IMG/VR virus record: IMGVR_UViG_3300042312_000024
Location: 1 to 43,384 of that record
DNA length: 43,384 nucleotides
From: a virus
Strand: one strand, 5' to 3'
Under the pieces are notes generated by a model. The model was not told the origin of the DNA and did no database searches. It worked only from the letters and a program-made list of their open reading frames with translations. Position numbers and translations under genes: made by a program. Below, one piece after another: positions 4,251 to 41,218 of this stretch; position 1 is the first letter of the stretch, and each line of letters starts with the position of its first letter.

Positions 4251-5377
4251 CAAGCCTCCTTCGCGCAGTCCCCAGAGAGAACCCACGTATTGGTGTCGCC
4301 GCCCACGCAGGTCAGCGTGATGACGGAGTTCAGCCCGCGTGTGGCGGGAGCGCAGCCTGCGGGAATCTCGATCAGGACTCCCGAAGCGGGAACCACAGTG
4401 ACCGGACCTGCGCGCTGCTGAAGGCTGAAGTAGCTGCCCGCACCGAGCTTGGTCTCGCTGTCGCCCACTGTCGGAATTGCATTGACGGTGACTTCGCAAC
4501 CGGAGCCGCCGGTGCAGCGCAGCAGCGCATACTCCGCAGCCTTACCGGCGTAGGCCACAGGCCCAGCCACTTCGATGATCTTGACCCGAAGGTCCGTCTG
4601 CGTGATCGGAGGCGGTCCCGTGTATGGTTTGGCGTAGCCTCGCAGAACTGCAAACCAGATGCTGCCCTCGGCAGGAATGGTCTCGAACCGGATTCGGCTC
4701 TGTGCAACGTCGTCGGGGTCGATGGTGACTTCGTAGTCCACGTCCGGCTGCATACCCACGCCATTGACGTAGACATCGTAGAAACCGGCCCCGGATACGT
4801 CCGCGCCCGGCATTAGGAACTCTGCATCATCCTCGGAATCCTCATCCCATGTGCCGGACCAGACCCGTGGCGCGACCGACACGATACCGCCCGCTGCCAG
4901 AAGTTCCAGCACTTCGCGGTAGATGTTCTGGATGATGTTGTTCAGGTCCACCACCACGCCGACCTGCTGGTCTATGGTAAGGGTGGCGATGTTGAGCGAG
5001 TCGAACATCTCTTGGATGATCTTCAGCAGTTGTTCGTTGCTGAGGTTGAGGTTCGCCTTGCTGATGATGCTGCCATTAACGTAGTCAACGAGCATCTGCT
5101 GCACCGGAGTGCTGCGGTAGATGTAGAGCTTGCGTCCAGCGCGCACGGCGGGAGAGACCCTTACGATGGACGAGTCATCGTCCTCGGACAGAACCTCCAC
5201 GTTGTGTGAAGTCCGGTCAGTCAGCAGCAGGGTCTCCTCGTCCACGATTCCGCTCATCGCGTACACGTGGTCCGGGTTAATGTAGCCACCCGTGAAACTG
5301 ATTTGCCAGTCGGTCGTGGTGCCGTTGGCGTTGAACACGTCAGTCGCGTAACGCAATTGCGGATTGGGGAATGCCAT
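4250..5377 (-). CDS. Tail fiber protein with T7 gp17-like N-terminal anchor
   Basis: The first 130 or so residues have the pattern of the T7 gp17 head-binding domain: a start rich in RYATDVFNANGTTTDWQISF, then GGYINPDHVYA and later RKLYIYRSTPVQQM. This domain anchors fibers to the tail tube. Behind it are a helical stretch (about 115-165) and beta-rich segments. At 375 residues it is shorter than T7 gp17 (553), so distal host-binding functions may be carried by the two following genes. ATG 5377 follows AGGAGGCAGT. A phage-type promoter lies just upstream, so the fiber genes can be transcribed independently of the internal virion genes. Confidence 0.88.
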   Translation of the reverse strand: MAFPNPQLRYATDVFNANGTTTDWQISFTGGYINPDHVYAMSGIVDEETLLLTDRTSHNVEVLSEDDDSSIVRVSPAVRAGRKLYIYRSTPVQQMLVDYVNGSIISKANLNLSNEQLLKIIQEMFDSLNIATLTIDQQVGVVVDLNNIIQNIYREVLELLAAGGIVSVAPRVWSGTWDEDSEDDAEFLMPGADVSGAGFYDVYVNGVGMQPDVDYEVTIDPDDVAQSRIRFETIPAEGSIWFAVLRGYAKPYTGPPPITQTDLRVKIIEVAGPVAYAGKAAEYALLRCTGGSGCEVTVNAIPTVGDSETKLGAGSYFSLQQRAGPVTVVPASGVLIEIPAGCAPATRGLNSVITLTCVGGDTNTWVLSGDCAKEA

Positions 5378-5391
5378 ACTGCCTCCTATGT

Positions 5392-5410
5392 TGTCGTATG
5401 TGTACCAAAA
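5392..5410 (-). promoter_or_regulatory. Phage RNA polymerase promoter before the tail-fiber gene
   Basis: On the minus strand this reads TTTTGGTACACATACGACA, identical to the site at 40442-40460 and one base away from the two behind the polymerase gene. It sits in the 58-base gap between the internal virion protein and the fiber gene and overlaps the T-run of a terminator-like hairpin. Assignment as promoter is from exact recurrence in intergenic, co-oriented positions. Confidence 0.85.
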
Positions 5411-5428
5411 GTGGGCCGTCCTTGGCCC
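5407..5428 (-). terminator. Terminator-like hairpin overlapping the fiber promoter
   Basis: On the minus strand GGGCC-AAGGAC-GGCCC is followed by ACTTTT. The stem is short (5 bp, all G-C) and the T-run is the first four bases of the promoter element. It lies right after the stop of the 1,643-residue core protein, so the junction could end one transcript and start the next. Confidence 0.6.
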
Positions 5429-5435
5429 GCCAGCA

Positions 5436-8400
5436 TTACTCCTCCATCTGCGCCGCAGCGCCCTTCAGCAGCGGTATGACGTAGGGAAGACGCCCGCCCG
5501 GGAGCACGTCCGCCAGATTCTCCGGACGGCCACTCACGCCCTGCGCGAAGTCGTTGATAACCCCCAGCGCCGGGGCAAAGCTGCCGCCCACGATTTCCTT
5601 GCGATTGCCGAGCTGACCGCCCGCGAGCTGACGCACCCAGTCGGGAGACCCCGTGTCCGTGGCGTGCTCGTACCAGCCACCCGCCACACCCGTACCCACT
5701 TCCAGCACGTCGCCGAGGAACGCCGTCGCGCTGATGTAGTTCATGGTGCTGCGGCCCATCGACAGCGGAGAGAGGGCGTCTTCGATTGCTTCGTCGCGCT
5801 GATCTTCCGGCAGCAGGGCTGCGCGAGATGCAACACGAAGAGCTTGCAACGGGGCCACCACAGCCATCGCTGAGGCGATGATGCCTGCCGTACCCCACGC
5901 GCCGTACAGCCCGACGTATCGTCCGAGCTGTTTCTGCTGCGCCACGAGCGAGAACGTCCGGTGCTGGAACAGCATTTTCAGCCACCCGTTGTGCGCCCAC
6001 TTGCCGGTCTCCCCGATGAAAGTGTCCTGCAAGATTTGGTTCGTGCCTCGGTCGATGGCGTTGTAGAACGCAATCCATGCCTGCCGATCCTGCAACGACT
6101 CCAGCCCACGTGGGTCCACGGCTTCAAGCTTACCGTCCGAACCCCAGCGCACCACCTGATCCTGAGTAGCACGTAAGCGCGCGAGCAGGTTGTCGTCGAT
6201 GCCCATGTCCTTCAGAGCAATGTCGGCCTCTGCGCCATCGCGCAAGAACTTCACACCCTTGGCGATAAGCACCTCAGCGAACCCTCGCTGCTGGACCGCG
6301 AGCACCATGCGCTGACCGGAGAGAATCCGGTTAGCGTTGGCGGTACGCTGCACTAGCGCAGTCAGAAAGCCCGCGCGCTCCGATCCGTAGAGCGAAGCCT
6401 GCGTATCCATAGCGTTGAACATGTGGAGATCGTACCCCGCGAGACCGAAGCCCCGCCCGCTGATGAACTCGAACCCACTGAGGATTCCGTTGTCGGCGTC
6501 TTCACCACGCAGCAGCTTCCCGATTTCGGCACGCATGCGGGGTGCGATGCGGATTGCATCTGCCACACCGGCAGCCCCGACAGCAGGTAGTCCGTTGGAA
6601 TACTCCGCAGCTTGGTTGATACCTGCTCCGCCGAGCTGAATTGCCGAGGTCAGCAGTCGTGCGTTAGCGAGAACCGTCGGGTCGCCAGTGCCGATGACTC
6701 GGCCCGTGAACTCCGACATCACCTGATCGAACGCGCGAAGCTCCACGTCATTCGCACCCGTGACCTGCATCGCCTTGCGGAGAACAGACACGCCCGCGTC
6801 GCCCATGACACCGTGCTTTGCGAGCGCGATGTCACCAGCCACCCGGCCCGCGTACTTGCGGTAGTTGTCCATCACCCGGTTGTCGAGGTAGTCCATCAGG
6901 CGAAACTCGCCTTCCTCGTCCTTGTACTTGCGAGTGACATCCAAGTCGATTCGGCTCTTGGTGTGCTTTGCACCGCCACGGGAGTAGCGACCCATCACCT
7001 GCTGAATCTGCTCCTCATTGAGCGACAGCGCGCGGAGAGTATCCCTCAATGTGTCGGACTGGGAGTCGGAGAACAGGTTGTCCGGGGCACGGTGCATGCC
7101 CGCAGCGCGCTCTTCGATGCGCTCAAGATACTTGATCGACAGGTCGTCGAGGAACTTGTCCCCGTACATCTCTCCCATCATGTCGAACTGATCCCGTATT
7201 GCCAGGCGGATTGCCTCGCGACGAGTGCGCCCGGCAGCAGCGATTTTGCCGCCCAGCCAAGTACGACTTTCGTAACCAGACACTTCCCCGTCGGGAAGCC
7301 GGGAGGAGCCGACCGTACCGACTGCACGCTGCTCCGCAGCCATGCGGTTGTAGCCTTCGTCCAAAACGCGCGCCATCTGCCGCACAGATTCGTGGGCGTC
7401 CGCTACCTCGCGGCCCATGAATCGGGTTTCGCGATACAGCTTTACCTCGTACTCGAACTCGCTTCGCATCTTCCAGCCGGTGGCAAAGTCTTTGATCGCG
7501 CCAGACTTGCGAACGTCCGCACGCCAAAGCCGGTATGCCGCTTCCCACTGACGCGGACGAGAACCCATGAAGGACTCGAAGCGACCACGACGATCCATCG
7601 CCGCAGTGCTGTGCCTGCCCGCCGCACCTTCCGGATTCTCCAACAGAGTCACCGCGATCATACGAGCGACAGGGGACTGCGAGGACATCAGCGTGGTGCT
7701 GGTAGCCTCCAGTCCGAACCGCTGCATTATTGTTGCCAGCTTCTCGGGGTCGATGGCGTACTTACCGCTGAACCTTTCCGCGCGGCCCAGAACTTCAGCC
7801 ACTTGGATTCGGGTAGCATCGTCGCTGATCTGCTTGTCCAGACCCATGCGCGCCACGAAAGCTTTGCGCTCGCGGTTGTTCTTGAAGATGGAGTTAACCA
7901 GCATACCTCGGACTTGCTGCGATGCTGCCTGCGGCGAACGAATCTCTTCGCCGAGCTGCTGCCCGACGACATTCATCAGCCGATCCAGCGCGGTCTCGCT
8001 GCCCTTCAGCCCCAGCACGCGGGCGATCTTGTCCCTCAGCCATTCCCATGCGGTTGCTTGCGGCGCACCCGGAGGCGCGCTGATGTTGCGGAGCACTGCC
8101 TGTGCATCTCGGTTAGTCAGGCCGTAAGAGATAAGCTCGTCCGTGTTCGCAAGGAAGCCCGGGAACTTGGACTGATCCACTCGGCCCTGCATACTCGCCG
8201 TCATCTTGGCACGATCTGCTTCGGAAAGGTTGGCGTTCACATGCGCGAGCAGCTCATCCATCTGAGACTTGAATCCGGTATCCTGCCGCAGAGCAAGGGA
8301 GGTCGCGGCGTGCAGCATCTCGTGCAGCACGACTTCCGGATTGTGGTACTTGCTGTCCAGTGCCATCGAGTTGTGGGCCGGGTTGTACCCACCGCCAATT

Positions 8401-17096: not shown

Positions 17097-18119
17097 TTAC
17101 GAAGCGCCCGGGTTGGTGCCCGCAGCGCGGATCAGGCCCGCCAAATCGACGCGGTTGAAGCCCACGGCGAACGACATCCACGAGTCCACGAAGTAGCACT
17201 TTGACGAATCGGACCACCAGACGCTCGACTGGAGCGGCAGCGCCTCGGCGATCAGCAGCGCACGCGGGGAAACCGCGACGGCCACGAGGCCGGTGAAGTT
17301 GCCGTCGTACCACTGGTTGTTGTCTTCGTTGGACAGGAGATGGCCGACGACTTGGCCGTTCGGCAGGTTCTCGCTCGACAGCACGGGGACGCCCCACGCC
17401 TTGAACATCGGGATGCCGGTGAGACGGTTGCCGTCGCTGGTCAGGTACTCGCCGTTGACGATCTGCTCGGCCTGCTGGAGCGTGTAGAACACGGTCGGGC
17501 GGACGATGAGCACGATGCCGTCACGCTGCGGCTTGACCTTCTTGGTCTCCTCCATCTGGGAGAACAGCTTGCCGATGGCAGCGTACAGCTTGGCCGGGTC
17601 CAGCTCGTCACCGGCCGCAGCCAGTCCGATCTGCGTGGCACCGAAGTGGCCCTCGGGCGCGCGGCCGTTCTTGGTGAAGGTGCTCTGCGTCTGCGCGGCA
17701 GCCTTGGCAGCAGCGATGGAGATGGTCGCATCGACGAACTCGGCGATTTCCTGCCCCTGCTCGACGGCGATTTCCTTGCGGGTGTCGATGTCGGTGAAGA
17801 TTTCGTCCAGCACCCAGATGCTGTGCCGCGAAAGCAGCAGGGTATCGACGGTCACCGACGCCTTGCTGAAGTCCACCTGCGTGCCGTCGGGCGAGTCGCC
17901 ACGCTTCAGCTTCTGGAGCTTCGTGCGGCCGATGGCCTTGCGGGTCAGCGTGTTGGTGCCCTTCACGGTCTTGCGCGGGAAGAACTTCTCCAGCACGGAG
18001 GTCGAGACGAACGTGTGCTCCACGTCGCCGGTGAACTGCTCCAGAATCAGGGCGTTCTGGTTGCCCGTCTGGTTGATCTGGTTCGGCAGAACCGGAACGG
18101 TCGGGAAGATGGTGCTCAT
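17097..18119 (-). CDS. Major capsid protein
   Basis: A 340-residue protein of the T7 gp10A type (345 residues), HK97 fold, forming the icosahedral shell. Visible family features are the N-terminal arm followed by FTGDVEHTFVSTSVLEKFF, the spine-helix-like run EIAVEQGQEIAEFVDATISI, and the C-terminal GIPMFKAWGVPVLSSENLP and YFVDSWMSFAVGFNRVDLAG segments. It lies directly behind the scaffold gene. ATG 18119 has CAGGAGCAAC about 10 bases upstream. Codon use strongly favours C- or G-ending codons, as expected for the most highly expressed gene. No frameshifted gp10B-type extension is apparent. Confidence 0.95.
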   Translation of the reverse strand: MSTIFPTVPVLPNQINQTGNQNALILEQFTGDVEHTFVSTSVLEKFFPRKTVKGTNTLTRKAIGRTKLQKLKRGDSPDGTQVDFSKASVTVDTLLLSRHSIWVLDEIFTDIDTRKEIAVEQGQEIAEFVDATISIAAAKAAAQTQSTFTKNGRAPEGHFGATQIGLAAAGDELDPAKLYAAIGKLFSQMEETKKVKPQRDGIVLIVRPTVFYTLQQAEQIVNGEYLTSDGNRLTGIPMFKAWGVPVLSSENLPNGQVVGHLLSNEDNNQWYDGNFTGLVAVAVSPRALLIAEALPLQSSVWWSDSSKCYFVDSWMSFAVGFNRVDLAGLIRAAGTNPGAS

Positions 18120-37325: not shown

Positions 37326-37868
37326 CTAGGGTTCGGGCTTGGGTTGCGGAGCAGGAGCCTCGGCCGCAGAGTACACCGGAGCCGCACGATAGCGTCCCTC
37401 GTGGGCACGCAGGTTGAACCACGGCGCACTGCGCACGGCCTTCATCGCTTCGTCCGCCGATGTGTACTTCGTACCTGCGATGCCCCGGCTACCGCTCGGA
37501 CGCCACTGTTCCTCCCAGCCCACGCCGACATTGCACTCCACGATCCAGTGATCGGGACTCTTGGTCTTCGGCTCGGCGAAGTCGCCCGTCACGAAGGGCT
37601 TCGGTCTGCCGACCACCGAACCGGAACGGCTCGGCTTCGGAGCACCGCCCGCACGTCCTGGAATCCAGTCGTGGAAGATGGTCTTGCCGTCGGCGCAGCT
37701 CTCCTCGGTGTCGAAGCTCCCGCCCTCCTTGAACGGAAGACCGCGCAGCACCTTGTAAAGCGCGCAGTCGCCGCCGACATGGTGGAACCGGAACGAGCCA
37801 AGCAGTTTGGCCTCTTCGCGGCTCATCACCAGCACGACGGCATCCTTACCTTCGATGATCTGGCTCAT
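37326..37868 (-). CDS. Hypothetical early protein with C-terminal EA-type unit (180 aa)
   Basis: The N-terminal 70 residues form an alpha/beta domain (DAVVLVMSREEAKLLGSFRF). A basic, Pro/Gly-rich linker follows. The C-terminal unit is HWIVECNVGVGWEEQW, then TKYTSADEAMKAVRSAPWF and GRYRAAPVYS, the same pattern as in the adjacent genes. The end is Pro-rich. ATG 37868 overlaps the preceding stop (ATGA). Function unknown. Confidence 0.68.
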   Translation of the reverse strand: MSQIIEGKDAVVLVMSREEAKLLGSFRFHHVGGDCALYKVLRGLPFKEGGSFDTEESCADGKTIFHDWIPGRAGGAPKPSRSGSVVGRPKPFVTGDFAEPKTKSPDHWIVECNVGVGWEEQWRPSGSRGIAGTKYTSADEAMKAVRSAPWFNLRAHEGRYRAAPVYSAAEAPAPQPKPEP

Positions 37869-38005
37869 GCCTTATCTCCCTTGGCCTTGTCGTCGGCCTT
37901 CGGCGCGGGCGTCTGGCCCGGATACCCGCCATGCGCAGGCTTGTGCGCATCGGAGGGAGAATTGTATTTGCTCATGTCTGTCTCCGTTGAATTGTATTTG
38001 CTCAT
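37865..38005 (-). CDS. Small early protein with duplicated start region (46 or 36 aa)
   Basis: Two in-frame ATGs, 38005 and 37975, each preceded by ACGGAGACAGAC and followed by codons for SKYNS, result from a perfect 30-bp tandem duplication. The product is short, hydrophilic and probably disordered (PSDAHKPAHGGYPGQTP, ending in KADDKAKGDKA). Both starts look usable, so two lengths may be made. It precedes and overlaps the 37868 gene. Function unknown. Confidence 0.6.
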   Translation of the reverse strand: MSKYNSTETDMSKYNSPSDAHKPAHGGYPGQTPAPKADDKAKGDKA

Positions 38006-38020
38006 GTCTGTCTCCGTTGA
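37961..38020. repeat. Perfect 30-bp tandem duplication covering a start codon
   Basis: Copies at 37961-37990 and 37991-38020 are identical. Each contains the ribosome-binding site, ATG and the next five codons of the small gene ending at 37865, and the phase (30) keeps the frame. Confidence 0.97.
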
Positions 38021-38065
38021 CGTGCGACACGCACGAAACTGCACACTCGGGAGTGTGTGCAGTGG
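38021..38065 (-). other. Two adjacent hairpins ahead of the duplicated start
   Basis: On the minus strand CTGCACAC pairs with GTGTGCAG (8 bp, around ACTCCCGA), followed by CGTGCG-TGT-CGCACG (6 bp). They separate the 38678 gene from the duplicated start region. The first is followed by TTTCG, so partial termination or RNA processing is possible. Confidence 0.55.
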
Positions 38066-38105
38066 CATGCGAAGTCAGGTAGCTCTTGATCGAGTTTCCC
38101 GTGGA

Positions 38106-38678
38106 TCAGAAGGTGGGTTCGTACTCGGCAGCCGGTGCGGCGGCCTTCTTCGCGGGCTTCGGCACCTTGCGCGCGGCTTCGATGACGGCCTGTTCCTCGG
38201 GCGACGGCGTATAGCCGGACTGCGAAGCCTTTTCGAGCTTGGCGAGGAGCTTGTGCAGGTCGGCGGCGAAGCTGAATTCCTCGGCGGACTTTTCGGTGGG
38301 CGCGGAGTACCACATCTCGGCCTCGGCGCGCACCATCTGGTCTTCGAGCGCTTCGCCTTCCAGCCGCTTGGACTTTGCGTACTTCATCGGAGCTTTGGTC
38401 TTGCTGTCCTTGTCGTCGTTCGGAGCCATCGGGCCGTACTTGGACAGATACACGCGCAGCGCTTCGTGTTTCATGCCGTTGCCGACCGCGAGACACAGAT
38501 CGGAGGCGAGGGTAACATCGCCGTGGACGTGTGCATGCTGGATCACGGACAGGGCGCAGAGCTGGATCATGTCCACCAGCTTGATTCGCGCAGTTCCGAT
38601 GGCCTTGATGTTCTTGCGGATGGCAACCGCGTTGGTTTCGATATTCATGGTCTGACTTCCGTTGGTTTCGATATTCAT
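38106..38678 (-). CDS. Early protein with duplicated start region (190 or 180 aa)
   Basis: Two in-frame ATGs (38678, 38648) lie in a perfect 30-bp tandem duplication, each with GGAAGTCAGACC before it. The protein is helical: NIKAIGTARIKLVDMIQLCA and further helices (HVHGDVTLASDLCLAVGNGM), then charged segments and a Lys/Pro/Ala tail with KKAAAPAAEYEPTF. Its high share of G/C-ending codons suggests strong expression. Relatives of this kind, with a helical N-terminal domain, occur as abundant early proteins of podoviruses, but I cannot name the function. Confidence 0.72.
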   Translation of the reverse strand: MNIETNGSQTMNIETNAVAIRKNIKAIGTARIKLVDMIQLCALSVIQHAHVHGDVTLASDLCLAVGNGMKHEALRVYLSKYGPMAPNDDKDSKTKAPMKYAKSKRLEGEALEDQMVRAEAEMWYSAPTEKSAEEFSFAADLHKLLAKLEKASQSGYTPSPEEQAVIEAARKVPKPAKKAAAPAAEYEPTF

Positions 38679-38690
38679 GGTCTGACTTCC
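38631..38690. repeat. Perfect 30-bp tandem duplication covering a start codon
   Basis: Copies at 38631-38660 and 38661-38690 are identical and contain ribosome-binding site, ATG and the codons for NIETN of the gene ending at 38106. The 30-base phase preserves the frame. The leader resembles that of the other duplicated start (CAACGGA, CAGAC, ATG). Confidence 0.97.
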
Positions 38691-38715
38691 GTTGGGTCCG
38701 TGCCAGTCGCACGAC

Positions 38716-38745
38716 AAAGCCCACTCCCGCGAAGGAATGGGCTTT
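38716..38745 (-). terminator. Strong hairpin in the early leader region
   Basis: AAAGCCCATTCC pairs with GGGAGTGGGCTTT (12 pairs including one G-U) around a short TTCGC-containing loop. It looks like an intrinsic terminator read from either side (AAA stem TTT), or an RNase III site, between the broken gene at 38756 and the gene starting at 38678. Confidence 0.65.
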
Positions 38746-38755
38746 AGCTTGCGTC

Positions 38756-38951
38756 TTACTTCTTCCGAAAGCGGTAGGCGTGACACTCCGCGCGCTTCCC
38801 GAAGTCATCCACTACCGCGACGTAAGCCGGAAAGCTGTACGTGGGCAGCGATGTGTGGTCGGGAGGGTCGTATTCGAGGACCGTGTATTCTTTCCCGAGG
38901 GGAAAGCGTAGCCGCCTGCAACTGACAGACCACGGACTCGCCCTTCTCGAA
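38756..38951 (-). pseudogene. Small early gene with apparent frameshift
   Basis: A well-formed protein segment (PLGKEYTVLEYDPPDHTS, then YSFPAYVAVVDDFGK and ECHAYRFRKK) ends at TAA 38756, but its frame has no start codon upstream before a stop. In the neighbouring frame the upstream bases give a matching beginning (ELTVFEKGESVVCQLQ). The two would join at the TTTCCCC run (38905-38899). Either a one-base indel in this genome or assembly, or programmed slippage at the run, would explain this. The start is not identified; it may overlap the end of the previous gene. Confidence 0.5.
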
Positions 38952-38956
38952 TACAG

Positions 38957-39145
38957 TCAGCTCACAAAAAAGACCGACCGCTTGCCGTTCGTCCCGTGGC
39001 GGGCTTCGTAACGCTCCGCATCACGCAGACGCTTGGCGCGCTTCCTCTCGGCATCCGGGCGCATGTCCAGAACGGACACGGTGCGGCTGAACTGGCAGAA
39101 GCGGCGCTTGGTCTGCGAACGAACGAGGTTGGAGTTTGCGTGCAT
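38957..39145 (-). CDS. First early gene, small basic protein (62 aa)
   Basis: A strongly basic protein with SQTKRRFCQFSRTVSVLDMR, then ERKRAKRLRDAERYEARHG, likely helical and possibly nucleic-acid-binding. ATG 39145 is preceded by GGAGGCACCCACG. An in-frame ATG at 39190 lies in a near-copy of the same start context (CACGATGCACGC), so the start region looks duplicated at 45-base distance. It is the first gene behind the host promoters, the usual place for anti-host proteins. A 13-base complement of its start site lies at 39278-39290. Confidence 0.65.
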   Translation of the reverse strand: MHANSNLVRSQTKRRFCQFSRTVSVLDMRPDAERKRAKRLRDAERYEARHGTNGKRSVFFVS

Positions 39146-39291
39146 CGTGGGTGCCTCCATTGGCACTGGTGGGAAATTGGTGGCGTGCATCGTGAACTGG
39201 GTCCGCGTTCACACCCTTACTTGCGGCGGCGTCAACTATCCCGGCCCTTTACAAGCTGCGTCCAGACTTCGGTCTATCCACGATGCACGCC
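39138..39291 (-). promoter_or_regulatory. Possible start-codon-sequestering switch
   Basis: The leader element at 39278-39291 can pair perfectly over 13 bases with the start site of the first gene (39138-39150, covering its ATG) or over 13 bases with the upstream copy (39182-39194). The two pairings exclude each other. Seen directly in the sequence; the regulatory meaning is inferred. Confidence 0.5.
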
Positions 39292-39300
39292 GAAGCGAAA

Positions 39301-39446
39301 TATACAGATATAGGTGCCCTAGCGCAGTCGTCATTGGGAGACGCTGCGCCCTACTGCCCAATACATCGGAATCGAATATCCCAGATTGCCCGGTTTCAAG
39401 ACCGTCCAGCATCGGATACCCAACCAAGGGCACCTATATCTGCATA
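39301..39446 (-). ncRNA. Structured RNA element with pseudoknot
   Basis: On the minus strand an outer 20-bp helix (39446-39427 with 39320-39301, one G-U) encloses three elements. The first is helix GGGTATCC/GGATATTC (39421-39414 with 39381-39374). Inside it is a small hairpin CGGT-CTTGAA-ACCG (39404-39391). The third is a 10-bp hairpin GCGCAG-CGTC/GACG-A-CTGCGC (39349-39322), whose loop CCCAAT (39338-39333) is complementary to ATTGGG (39362-39357). G-U pairs would be A-C mismatches on the other strand, so the minus-strand RNA is the likely functional form. No known RNA family is recognised. Confidence 0.6.
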
Positions 39447-39462
39447 CCTTTCGGGTTGTCAA
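39433..39462 (-). promoter_or_regulatory. Possible host sigma-70 promoter at the edge of the RNA element
   Basis: TTGACA (39462-39457), 18-base spacer, TATAGG (39438-39433). The -10 lies within the outer helix of the RNA element and the -35 is in a GGGTTGACAACCC palindrome, so it may be coincidental. Confidence 0.4.
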
Positions 39463-39522
39463 CCCTACTCCGGTATGCAGTGCCATAATCACCAGTGTCG
39501 CATTTGCGCTTTCACTAACTCC

Positions 39523-39870
39523 CGGGATATTCCCGACAGCGTGAGGGTTCATCCGATCCGCGCAAAAGCTGCTGCGGGTTCTCTTTGGGACGCACAATCC
39601 TTGTGCCTGATTATGGCGTAAAGCCAACCCTGTCGGAATCCTCATCTTGGGCCGCGCCTGCCCGCTATTACCCGGGCATCTTGTGCGTTGGCGGAATTGC
39701 ACCGCAGATTGCACAAGGCGAGTTTCTAGGCTCGCACCCTCCGCTATACTCTCGGCCCACCAACGGGCGTCACGTGTGGAGGTTGTATGGCGTAGGTCGC
39801 ATCTCGGGTGACTCTCCCGGCTTGCGCCGGATGCCTGCTATCCGATCAACACTAGCCCGCCATCGGGCTT
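39523..39870 (-). other. Cluster of leader hairpins
   Basis: Perfect short hairpins follow one another. They are CGGGA/TCCCG (39523-39535), GCACAA/TTGTGC (39592-39606) and CTTGTGC/GCACAAG enclosing GCGG/CCGC (39680-39717). Further on are CCGGC-GCAA-GCCGG with a GNRA loop (39817-39830) and AGCCCG/CGGGCT (39854-39869). The TTGTGC/GCACAA words of the second and third can also pair with each other, allowing alternative folds. Nothing coding is seen. Confidence 0.6.
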
Positions 39871-39938
39871 CCCACAAGGCTTATTAGGCCCGCACCGTTT
39901 AGCGTCCGGTCGTCACGACGTTTATTCACTGTGTAGCC

Positions 39939-39967
39939 ATCCTATCACCTTCCTGCCGCAGTGTCAA
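39939..39967 (-). promoter_or_regulatory. Host sigma-70-type early promoter
   Basis: TTGACA (39967-39962), 17-base spacer, TAGGAT (39944-39939). Points toward the early genes. The -35 is perfect and the spacing ideal. Confidence 0.8.
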
Positions 39968-40078
39968 GCCCTTGCCTAACACCGGAAGCCTCTAGCTCCC
40001 TTGGGCGTCCTGTCGCCACCATCCTACCATTGCGCAGGTAGTCCGCCTTCCTGCGGTAAGCAGGTTTCACGTGTTGCA

Positions 40079-40107
40079 AGCCTAGCGTATTGCGTCCAGC
40101 TTGTCAA
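40079..40107 (-). promoter_or_regulatory. Host sigma-70-type early promoter
   Basis: TTGACA (40107-40102), 17-base spacer containing GGACGC, TAGGCT (40084-40079). It shares spacer and -10 sequence with the site at 40226-40254. Confidence 0.8.
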
Positions 40108-40225
40108 GAGTCTTGTTAGTAGCTCATCGCATCCTAACTTGATCGCTACAGGCGGGATGCCCTTGTCGTCGGCCCGTAGGCTTCCCTCCCGCTTGCTCAG
40201 TAGCTTTGTCTCTTGACTTCCCAGA

Positions 40226-40254
40226 AGCCTAACACATGGCGTCCGATCTGTCAA
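40226..40254 (-). promoter_or_regulatory. Host sigma-70-type early promoter
   Basis: TTGACA (40254-40249), 17-base spacer with GGACGC, TAGGCT (40231-40226). Confidence 0.8.
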
Positions 40255-40441
40255 CCCGTTCGCATCATTGCTTACCCGTAGGCTTACGAATCAGCGAGCG
40301 GCCCTTGCGCTACGACTGCAAGGAGTAGTGCGAGCGAGGATTCTAGGCTAGTAGGCTATGCTTGCGGATGCAAGCGGCCCAACCCTGTCAACCCTTGGGA
40401 GCTATCGGCTAAAGACCGATATACCGTTCAGGTTGAGCCTC

Positions 40442-40460
40442 TGTCGTATGTGTACCAAAA
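40442..40460 (-). promoter_or_regulatory. Phage RNA polymerase promoter before the early region
   Basis: Minus strand TTTTGGTACACATACGACA, identical to the fiber-gene site. It would let the phage polymerase re-transcribe the early and DNA-metabolism genes once it is made. It lies between host promoters. Confidence 0.85.
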
Positions 40461-40505
40461 GGCAAACGACACAGATGGCGTCCTCGCGTCCCTCAGTGCG
40501 TCCGC

Positions 40506-40534
40506 ATCATAGCCGCTATGGTTGCCCATGTCAA
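40506..40534 (-). promoter_or_regulatory. Host sigma-70-type early promoter, best match
   Basis: TTGACA (40534-40529), 17-base spacer, TATGAT (40511-40506). Only one base differs from the full consensus, so this is probably the strongest early promoter. Confidence 0.85.
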
Positions 40535-40602
40535 GCCCTGCGCGCGCCCTGTGGCGCCTGTCCTGCGGCCTGCGTGGTGCCGTGCCGTAGCTCAGTGACG
40601 CC

Positions 40603-40631
40603 AGTAGACCACAACACGGCCAGCCCGTCAA
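40603..40631 (-). promoter_or_regulatory. Weak host-type promoter candidate
   Basis: TTGACG (40631-40626), 17-base spacer, TCTACT (40608-40603). Correct spacing but a poor -10; listed because it continues the regular series of co-oriented sites. Confidence 0.4.
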
Positions 40632-40714
40632 GCACGACCCGACGAACGGTTAGGGCTTCCGTAGTGGGATGGTGTACTAGCTCACCAGCACACTCCCGGC
40701 AGCCACGTGAGAGG

Positions 40715-40815
40715 GAACGCGCACGATCACACGCCCACGCAGGCGCACAGGCACGCCCGTACACGCGCACCCACGCAGGCCCACGCACGAGCACGCGCAT
40801 GACGCACGGGTGCCC
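40715..40815. repeat. CACGC-rich imperfect short repeats
   Basis: About 100 bases dominated by CACGC, GCACG and CCACGCAGG words in irregular spacing. No protein is encoded. In T7 short repeats flank the terminal repeat, so this may mark the genome end, but the T7 repeat sequence is different. Confidence 0.6.
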
Positions 40816-40869
40816 ATGGGGGCGTGCGCGCGAGCTTCTATCGGAGTGGGTCTCGCGTATTTCTCTACC

Positions 40870-40912
40870 AAAATTTGGCCCAGCTACCCGGAGCTAACCA
40901 GATAGCTGGACC
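40870..40912 (-). terminator. Terminator after the lysis genes
   Basis: GGTCCAGCTA (40912-40903) pairs with TAGCTGGGCC (40886-40877), 10 pairs with one G-U, followed by AAATTTTGG. It lies seven bases beyond the Rz1 stop and ends the late transcript before the control region. Confidence 0.75.
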
Positions 40913-40918
40913 TTAGCC

Positions 40919-41218
40919 TTACTTGCGCGGCTTTCGCTCGGTGCAGCGCCAACCGCAAGCCTTCTCGTAGCCGTCGTACCAAGCCCGGATGGCCGCCTTG
41001 TCCGCGTTGCAGAACTTCAGATCGTACTCCCGGGCCACTGCAAGGCGCACTGCGTCGCCGTTGGTGGGGTTCTCTGCACCGAGGTACGTGATCTTGCAGT
41101 CCTTCAGGTACTCAGGGGGCGGACTCGGCAGGGTCACGCAGGAGGTCAGCGACATCATCAGGCAGAGGCTCATCAGCCCAGTCGCCATTGCGCTGGAGAG
41201 CAGCATCGACTTGCGCAT
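40919..41218 (-). CDS. Outer-membrane spanin lipoprotein (Rz1-like)
   Basis: The 99-residue protein has a lipoprotein signal: basic MRKSMLL, hydrophobic core and lipobox LTSC (Cys at residue 27), followed by TLPSPPPEY, a Pro-rich start typical of Rz1. The mature part has several Cys and is longer than classic Rz1. The start at 41218 lies within the Rz gene in another frame (107-base overlap); an upstream in-frame start would bury the signal. It works with Rz to fuse inner and outer membranes in the last step of lysis. No strong ribosome-binding site is seen (AACGGGAAACCAAAG). Confidence 0.82.
   Translation of the reverse strand: MRKSMLLSSAMATGLMSLCLMMSLTSCVTLPSPPPEYLKDCKITYLGAENPTNGDAVRLAVAREYDLKFCNADKAAIRAWYDGYEKACGWRCTERKPRK

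Follow-up and report, generated by a model that had tools for sequence, protein, structure and literature searches.

Why should two neighboring early genes of one phage each carry their translation start twice? The question is raised by an IMG/VR virus record of 43,384 nt (the window, meaning the whole stretch of DNA that was analyzed), whose genes lie on the minus strand. Judging by gene content and order, which the window has in common with members of the genus, and with nucleotide coverage measured only in part, this phage is close to Pradovirus (Autographiviridae). For example, the majority of the proteins of the Pradovirus Stenotrophomonas phage SB5 match the window with their order kept, at roughly 30-92% identity. 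The host group is Xanthomonas/Stenotrophomonas-type bacteria. No tRNAs were found in a tRNA search of the whole window. A Pfam search of the early proteins gave nothing over the cut-off, and a PHROGs search led to families of unknown function; the protein of early gene 1 has no match in Pfam, in PHROGs, or in the phages collection.

A sequence-only reading had described two perfect 30-bp tandem duplications that copy the start regions of these genes in frame. Apart from the register (our limits are in the table), this description is exact. On the minus strand, the repeated units are CAACGGAGACAGACATGAGCAAATACAATT and CAACGGAAGTCAGACCATGAATATCGAAAC, and in each tract the copies are 100% identical with a period of 30. 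In each gene, the doubled segment comprises the leader (CAACGGAGACAGAC or CAACGGAAGTCAGACC), the ribosome binding site (RBS; CGGAGA in gene 1 and GGAAG in gene 2), the ATG, and the first codons, and the doubled ATGs of both genes are in frame with no stop codon between them. These two tracts are the only perfect tandem duplications in the window with a period of 10-300. (A degenerate GC-rich tandem array with a period of about 24 lies in noncoding DNA at 40717-40794.) Self-matches within 100 nt rise above background at just 2 of the window's 39 gene starts (33/35 and 32/35, while 99% of random positions reach at most 21/35). The leader pattern that the two genes were said to share, CAACGGA-CAGAC-ATG, also holds up, as CAACGGA.{5,9}ATG was found at these four copies only.

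Table 1. Coordinates of the doubled gene starts and of the leader features around them
Feature	Position	Strand	Remarks
Early gene 1	37865..38005	minus	small protein MSKYNSTETDMSKYNSPSDAHKPAHGG... (MSKYNS...)
Tandem duplication, gene 1	37959..38020	minus	perfect, 30 nt; 62-nt tract = 2x30+2
In-frame ATGs, gene 1	38005 (upstream), 37975 (downstream)	minus	downstream ATG ancestral
CGTGC-N5-GCACG hairpin, gene 1	38021..38035	minus	0 nt upstream of duplication
Hairpin A, gene 1	38038..38063	minus	9-bp perfect stem
Early gene 2	38106..38678	minus	MNIETN...; Prado_02-like; phrog_1448, unknown function
Tandem duplication, gene 2	38630..38695	minus	perfect, 30 nt; 66-nt tract = 2x30+6
In-frame ATGs, gene 2	38678 (upstream), 38648 (downstream)	minus	downstream ATG ancestral
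CGTGC-GACTG-GCACG hairpin, gene 2	38699..38713	minus	3 nt upstream of duplication; conserved in relatives
Hairpin A, gene 2	38715..38746	minus	14-bp perfect stem
12-mer CACGATGCACGC	39138..39149	minus	holds true start (39145) of gene 3 (phrog_15315)
Inverted-repeat arm CACGATGCACGCC	39182..39194	minus	13 nt; had been read as a diverged start copy
Inverted-repeat arm GGCGTGCATCGTG	39279..39291	minus	13 nt
Leader element in related loci	L001 5014; L014 9964, 11007; L041 1876, 3241; L114 5317, 5852; L127		two copies in L127

Tandem copies in a contig can be false products of assembly or amplification, and an assembly artefact had been named as the danger to the claim. However, a second contig (IMGVR_UViG_3300034103_000145; 28,090 nt) corresponds to positions 12251-40340 of the window and contains both duplications, and its consensus differs from the window at two adjacent positions (18058-18059). 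In alignments with relatives, the gap is clean and 30 nt long. Furthermore, short-read assemblers tend to collapse such repeats, not to create them, and there are no further perfect tandem copies across 43 kb. Both records are IMG/VR virus contigs, and their two samples may not be independent. On the whole, we consider an artefact very unlikely.

Comparison with close relatives, which had been proposed as a check, bears the duplications out: the orthologs are single-copy and have a 30-nt gap against the window. For gene 2, the orthologs in phages DoCa9, DoCa4, SB5, XAJ24, NED111, F5, and NUT30 and in several IMG/VR contigs have a single start and the same leader. (In two related loci, L001 at 4869-5579 and L002 at 1387-2016, the annotation places the start of this ortholog well before the conserved MNIETN start, with the hairpin element inside the annotated gene; these starts were probably mis-called.) Gene 1 at first appeared to be an orphan, which is ruled against by the ortholog MPNYNSPAAAHKPSHGG at 3271 of L041 (IMGVR_UViG_3300042566_000161). 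This ortholog has a single start and the same type of leader, and aligning it with the window shows that the window has 30 nt more, cleanly inserted. Because the orthologs are single-copy and the copies are identical, both duplications are derived and are recent relative to the splits from the single-copy relatives. IMG/VR searches returned no near-identical single-copy relative.

A third early gene had been thought to carry a diverged copy of its start. This does not survive: the self-match of its start region is within the null, and the 12-mer CACGATGCACGC is part of a 13-nt inverted repeat, which together rule out a diverged start duplication. An exact copy of the 12-mer lies 45 nt upstream (39183-39194), and an inverted one is found at 39279-39290; the inverted pair encloses about 110 nt of leader that is missing from relatives. 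The RBS block AGTGCCAATGGAGGCAC that adjoins the true start is kept in most relatives. The gene 3 leader is thus a rearrangement of another kind than the two tandem duplications. Read from 39291 to 39279 on the minus strand, one arm could pair with either the decoy copy or the true start, so that sequestration of the start codon of gene 3 is possible from the sequence; the predicted fold of this leader region has an ordinary energy (z of -0.38). Another inverted repeat, of 20 nt (39301-39320 and 39427-39446, 106 nt apart), closely follows a sigma70-like promoter, where the early leader begins. In L006 and L007, its counterparts differ in arm sequence and still pair, and the repeat is probably a structured leader RNA. 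A series of sigma70-like promoters (TTGACA ... TAGGCT/TAGGAT/TATAGG), read by eye, occupies the noncoding minus strand before the early genes, at about 39.4-40.3 kb.

Directly upstream of each duplication is a leader element made of hairpin A (a perfect stem of 9-14 bp) followed by CGTGC-N5-GCACG (hairpin B). The window contains exactly two copies of hairpin B, adjoining both duplications (shuffled sequences have 0.22 on average, and 0 of 100 shuffles have two). The chance that one random tract would lie within 5 nt of either palindrome is 0.004 (computed post hoc). The tandem arrangement is also found before early genes of Pradovirus relatives and of four related loci (L014, L041, L114, and L127); in L033 and L125, hairpin B has no tandem partner. 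The early leaders of the Pradovirus phages Prado, DoCa9, SB5, and XAJ24 have the same genes, order, and hairpin element, but their starts are single whereas those of the window are doubled. Perfect upstream stems of 9-14 bp occur in 12 unique instances, while a stem of 11 bp is attained at just 8 of 3,000 positions chosen at random. In an alignment of 11 sequences, hairpin A has 11 pairs, and 9 of them remain paired although both partners have changed. The covariation score (0.428) is higher than that of all 500 shuffles (mean 0.185) and of all slid versions (at most 0.147). Hairpin B is invariant across instances and so carries no covariation evidence. Of the matches to CGTGCGACTGGCACG from a scan of the collection, many are without an upstream hairpin, several of these apparently within coding sequence, and look like chance. 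The element matches no Rfam family; across 37800-41000, the search for known RNA families gave one sub-threshold chance match only.

The hairpins and the CAACGGA..CAGAC..ATG pattern are common to both leaders, as would be the case if one gene had acquired its doubled leader from the other, with later divergence. But the copies are identical within each gene and clearly different between the genes, which rules against such a transfer, and the coding part of each unit matches its own gene's single-copy ortholog. We consider this explanation extremely improbable.

The ends of the tracts suggest how the duplications could have arisen. Beyond two full units, the tracts contain a further 2 nt (gene 1) and 6 nt (gene 2), which implies direct repeats in the single-copy sequences, and these are now the flanking microhomologies: TC for gene 1 and CCAACG (minus strand) for gene 2. 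Both tracts are exact head-to-tail copies with short direct-repeat ends and derive from a single-copy ancestor. Duplications that form by slippage or by microhomology-mediated template switching likewise are exact head-to-tail copies, with direct-repeat ends of 2-6 nt. We consider it moderately probable that there were two recent and separate events of this kind beside the leader element, which were tolerated and left redundant in-frame starts. The single-copy ancestors would have had the direct repeats 30 nt apart, slippage or template switching between them would have produced the 30-bp duplications, and the strong hairpins beside both sites are a plausible trigger for stalling. The change was probably nearly neutral, and the duplications may have persisted because the copied RBS-ATG unit spares the original downstream start and 30 nt preserves the frame. 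Initiation at either ATG would yield a functional protein, either the native form or one extended by 10 residues, so each mRNA would now have two equivalent starts, probably redundant, both of which may be used. The predicted accessibility of the RBS changes little on doubling. About a dozen relatives have the hairpin element without a duplication, which implies that the element alone seldom causes one.

To ask what is unusual about the window, we used 93 related loci (1.86 Mb, partly redundant) as a background set and considered perfect tandem duplications with a period of 15-120. Among the 23 rows found, the inspected ones are either coding repeats or DNA of noncoding leaders; a gene start is doubled in none of the 23. 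Related phages (L047, L056, and L106) have slippage-type duplications in their noncoding leaders. (Phage DoCa9 also has a perfect 147-bp tandem duplication in its tail region, at 40923-41238 of L001.) The number of tandem duplications in the window is mildly high (0.54 expected, P(>=2) of about 0.10), and it is their placement rather than their number that is unusual. What sets the window apart from usual slippage duplications is that two of equal length lie within 700 nt, each next to the same hairpin element and each copying a gene start. Plain slippage would not call for such order, with two of two at starts and with equal length and phase.

This orderliness could reflect selection, if having two RBS-ATG units makes translation of both early genes stronger or results in two N-terminal forms. 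Both units span the RBS and the start, are 30 nt long and in frame, and belong to early genes with a common leader element; the absence of covered starts from the background set also fits. Moreover, the Shine-Dalgarno (SD) sequence of gene 2 is weak (the predicted duplex is -4.1 kcal/mol, versus -9.3 kcal/mol for gene 3), and the upstream copy of gene 1 is predicted to be more open (SD unpaired 0.43 versus 0.18). However, these predicted shifts in accessibility are small, and the intact downstream start already accounts for tolerance at these sites. Repeated selection for doubled starts had been proposed from the sequence, but doubled starts are absent from the relatives that share these genes and the leader element. 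In a dual-start gene with two functional products, both starts would be conserved in relatives, and every relative examined is single-start. In phage lambda, holin gene S is a dual-start gene whose two in-frame starts, near its 5' end, have opposed functions. The window's starts differ from this: each pair consists of exact copies, each start has an RBS of its own, and there is no conserved dual product. A literature search on doubled RBS or start regions in phages found nothing relevant. Selection for doubled starts is possible but, in our view, rather unlikely. The other proposal, a copying mechanism focused on these sites, fits better: the direct-repeat ends and the shared hairpin element agree with copying, while the idea of a focus is drawn from two duplication events only, in a single lineage.

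The conserved leader element may be more interesting than the duplications and is the lead most worth pursuing. RNase III-type processing sites, transcript stabilizers, and antitermination RNAs offer general leads for its role. It is unlikely, though conceivable, that the element is an uncatalogued regulatory element of phage early mRNAs and that the doubled units behind it are adaptive tuning or the products of a hotspot. In any case, the element appears testable as a signal for early-mRNA control or processing. If hairpin leaders favor exact in-frame duplication of starts, then rapid variation in expression would have a source at the gene starts of compact phage genomes.
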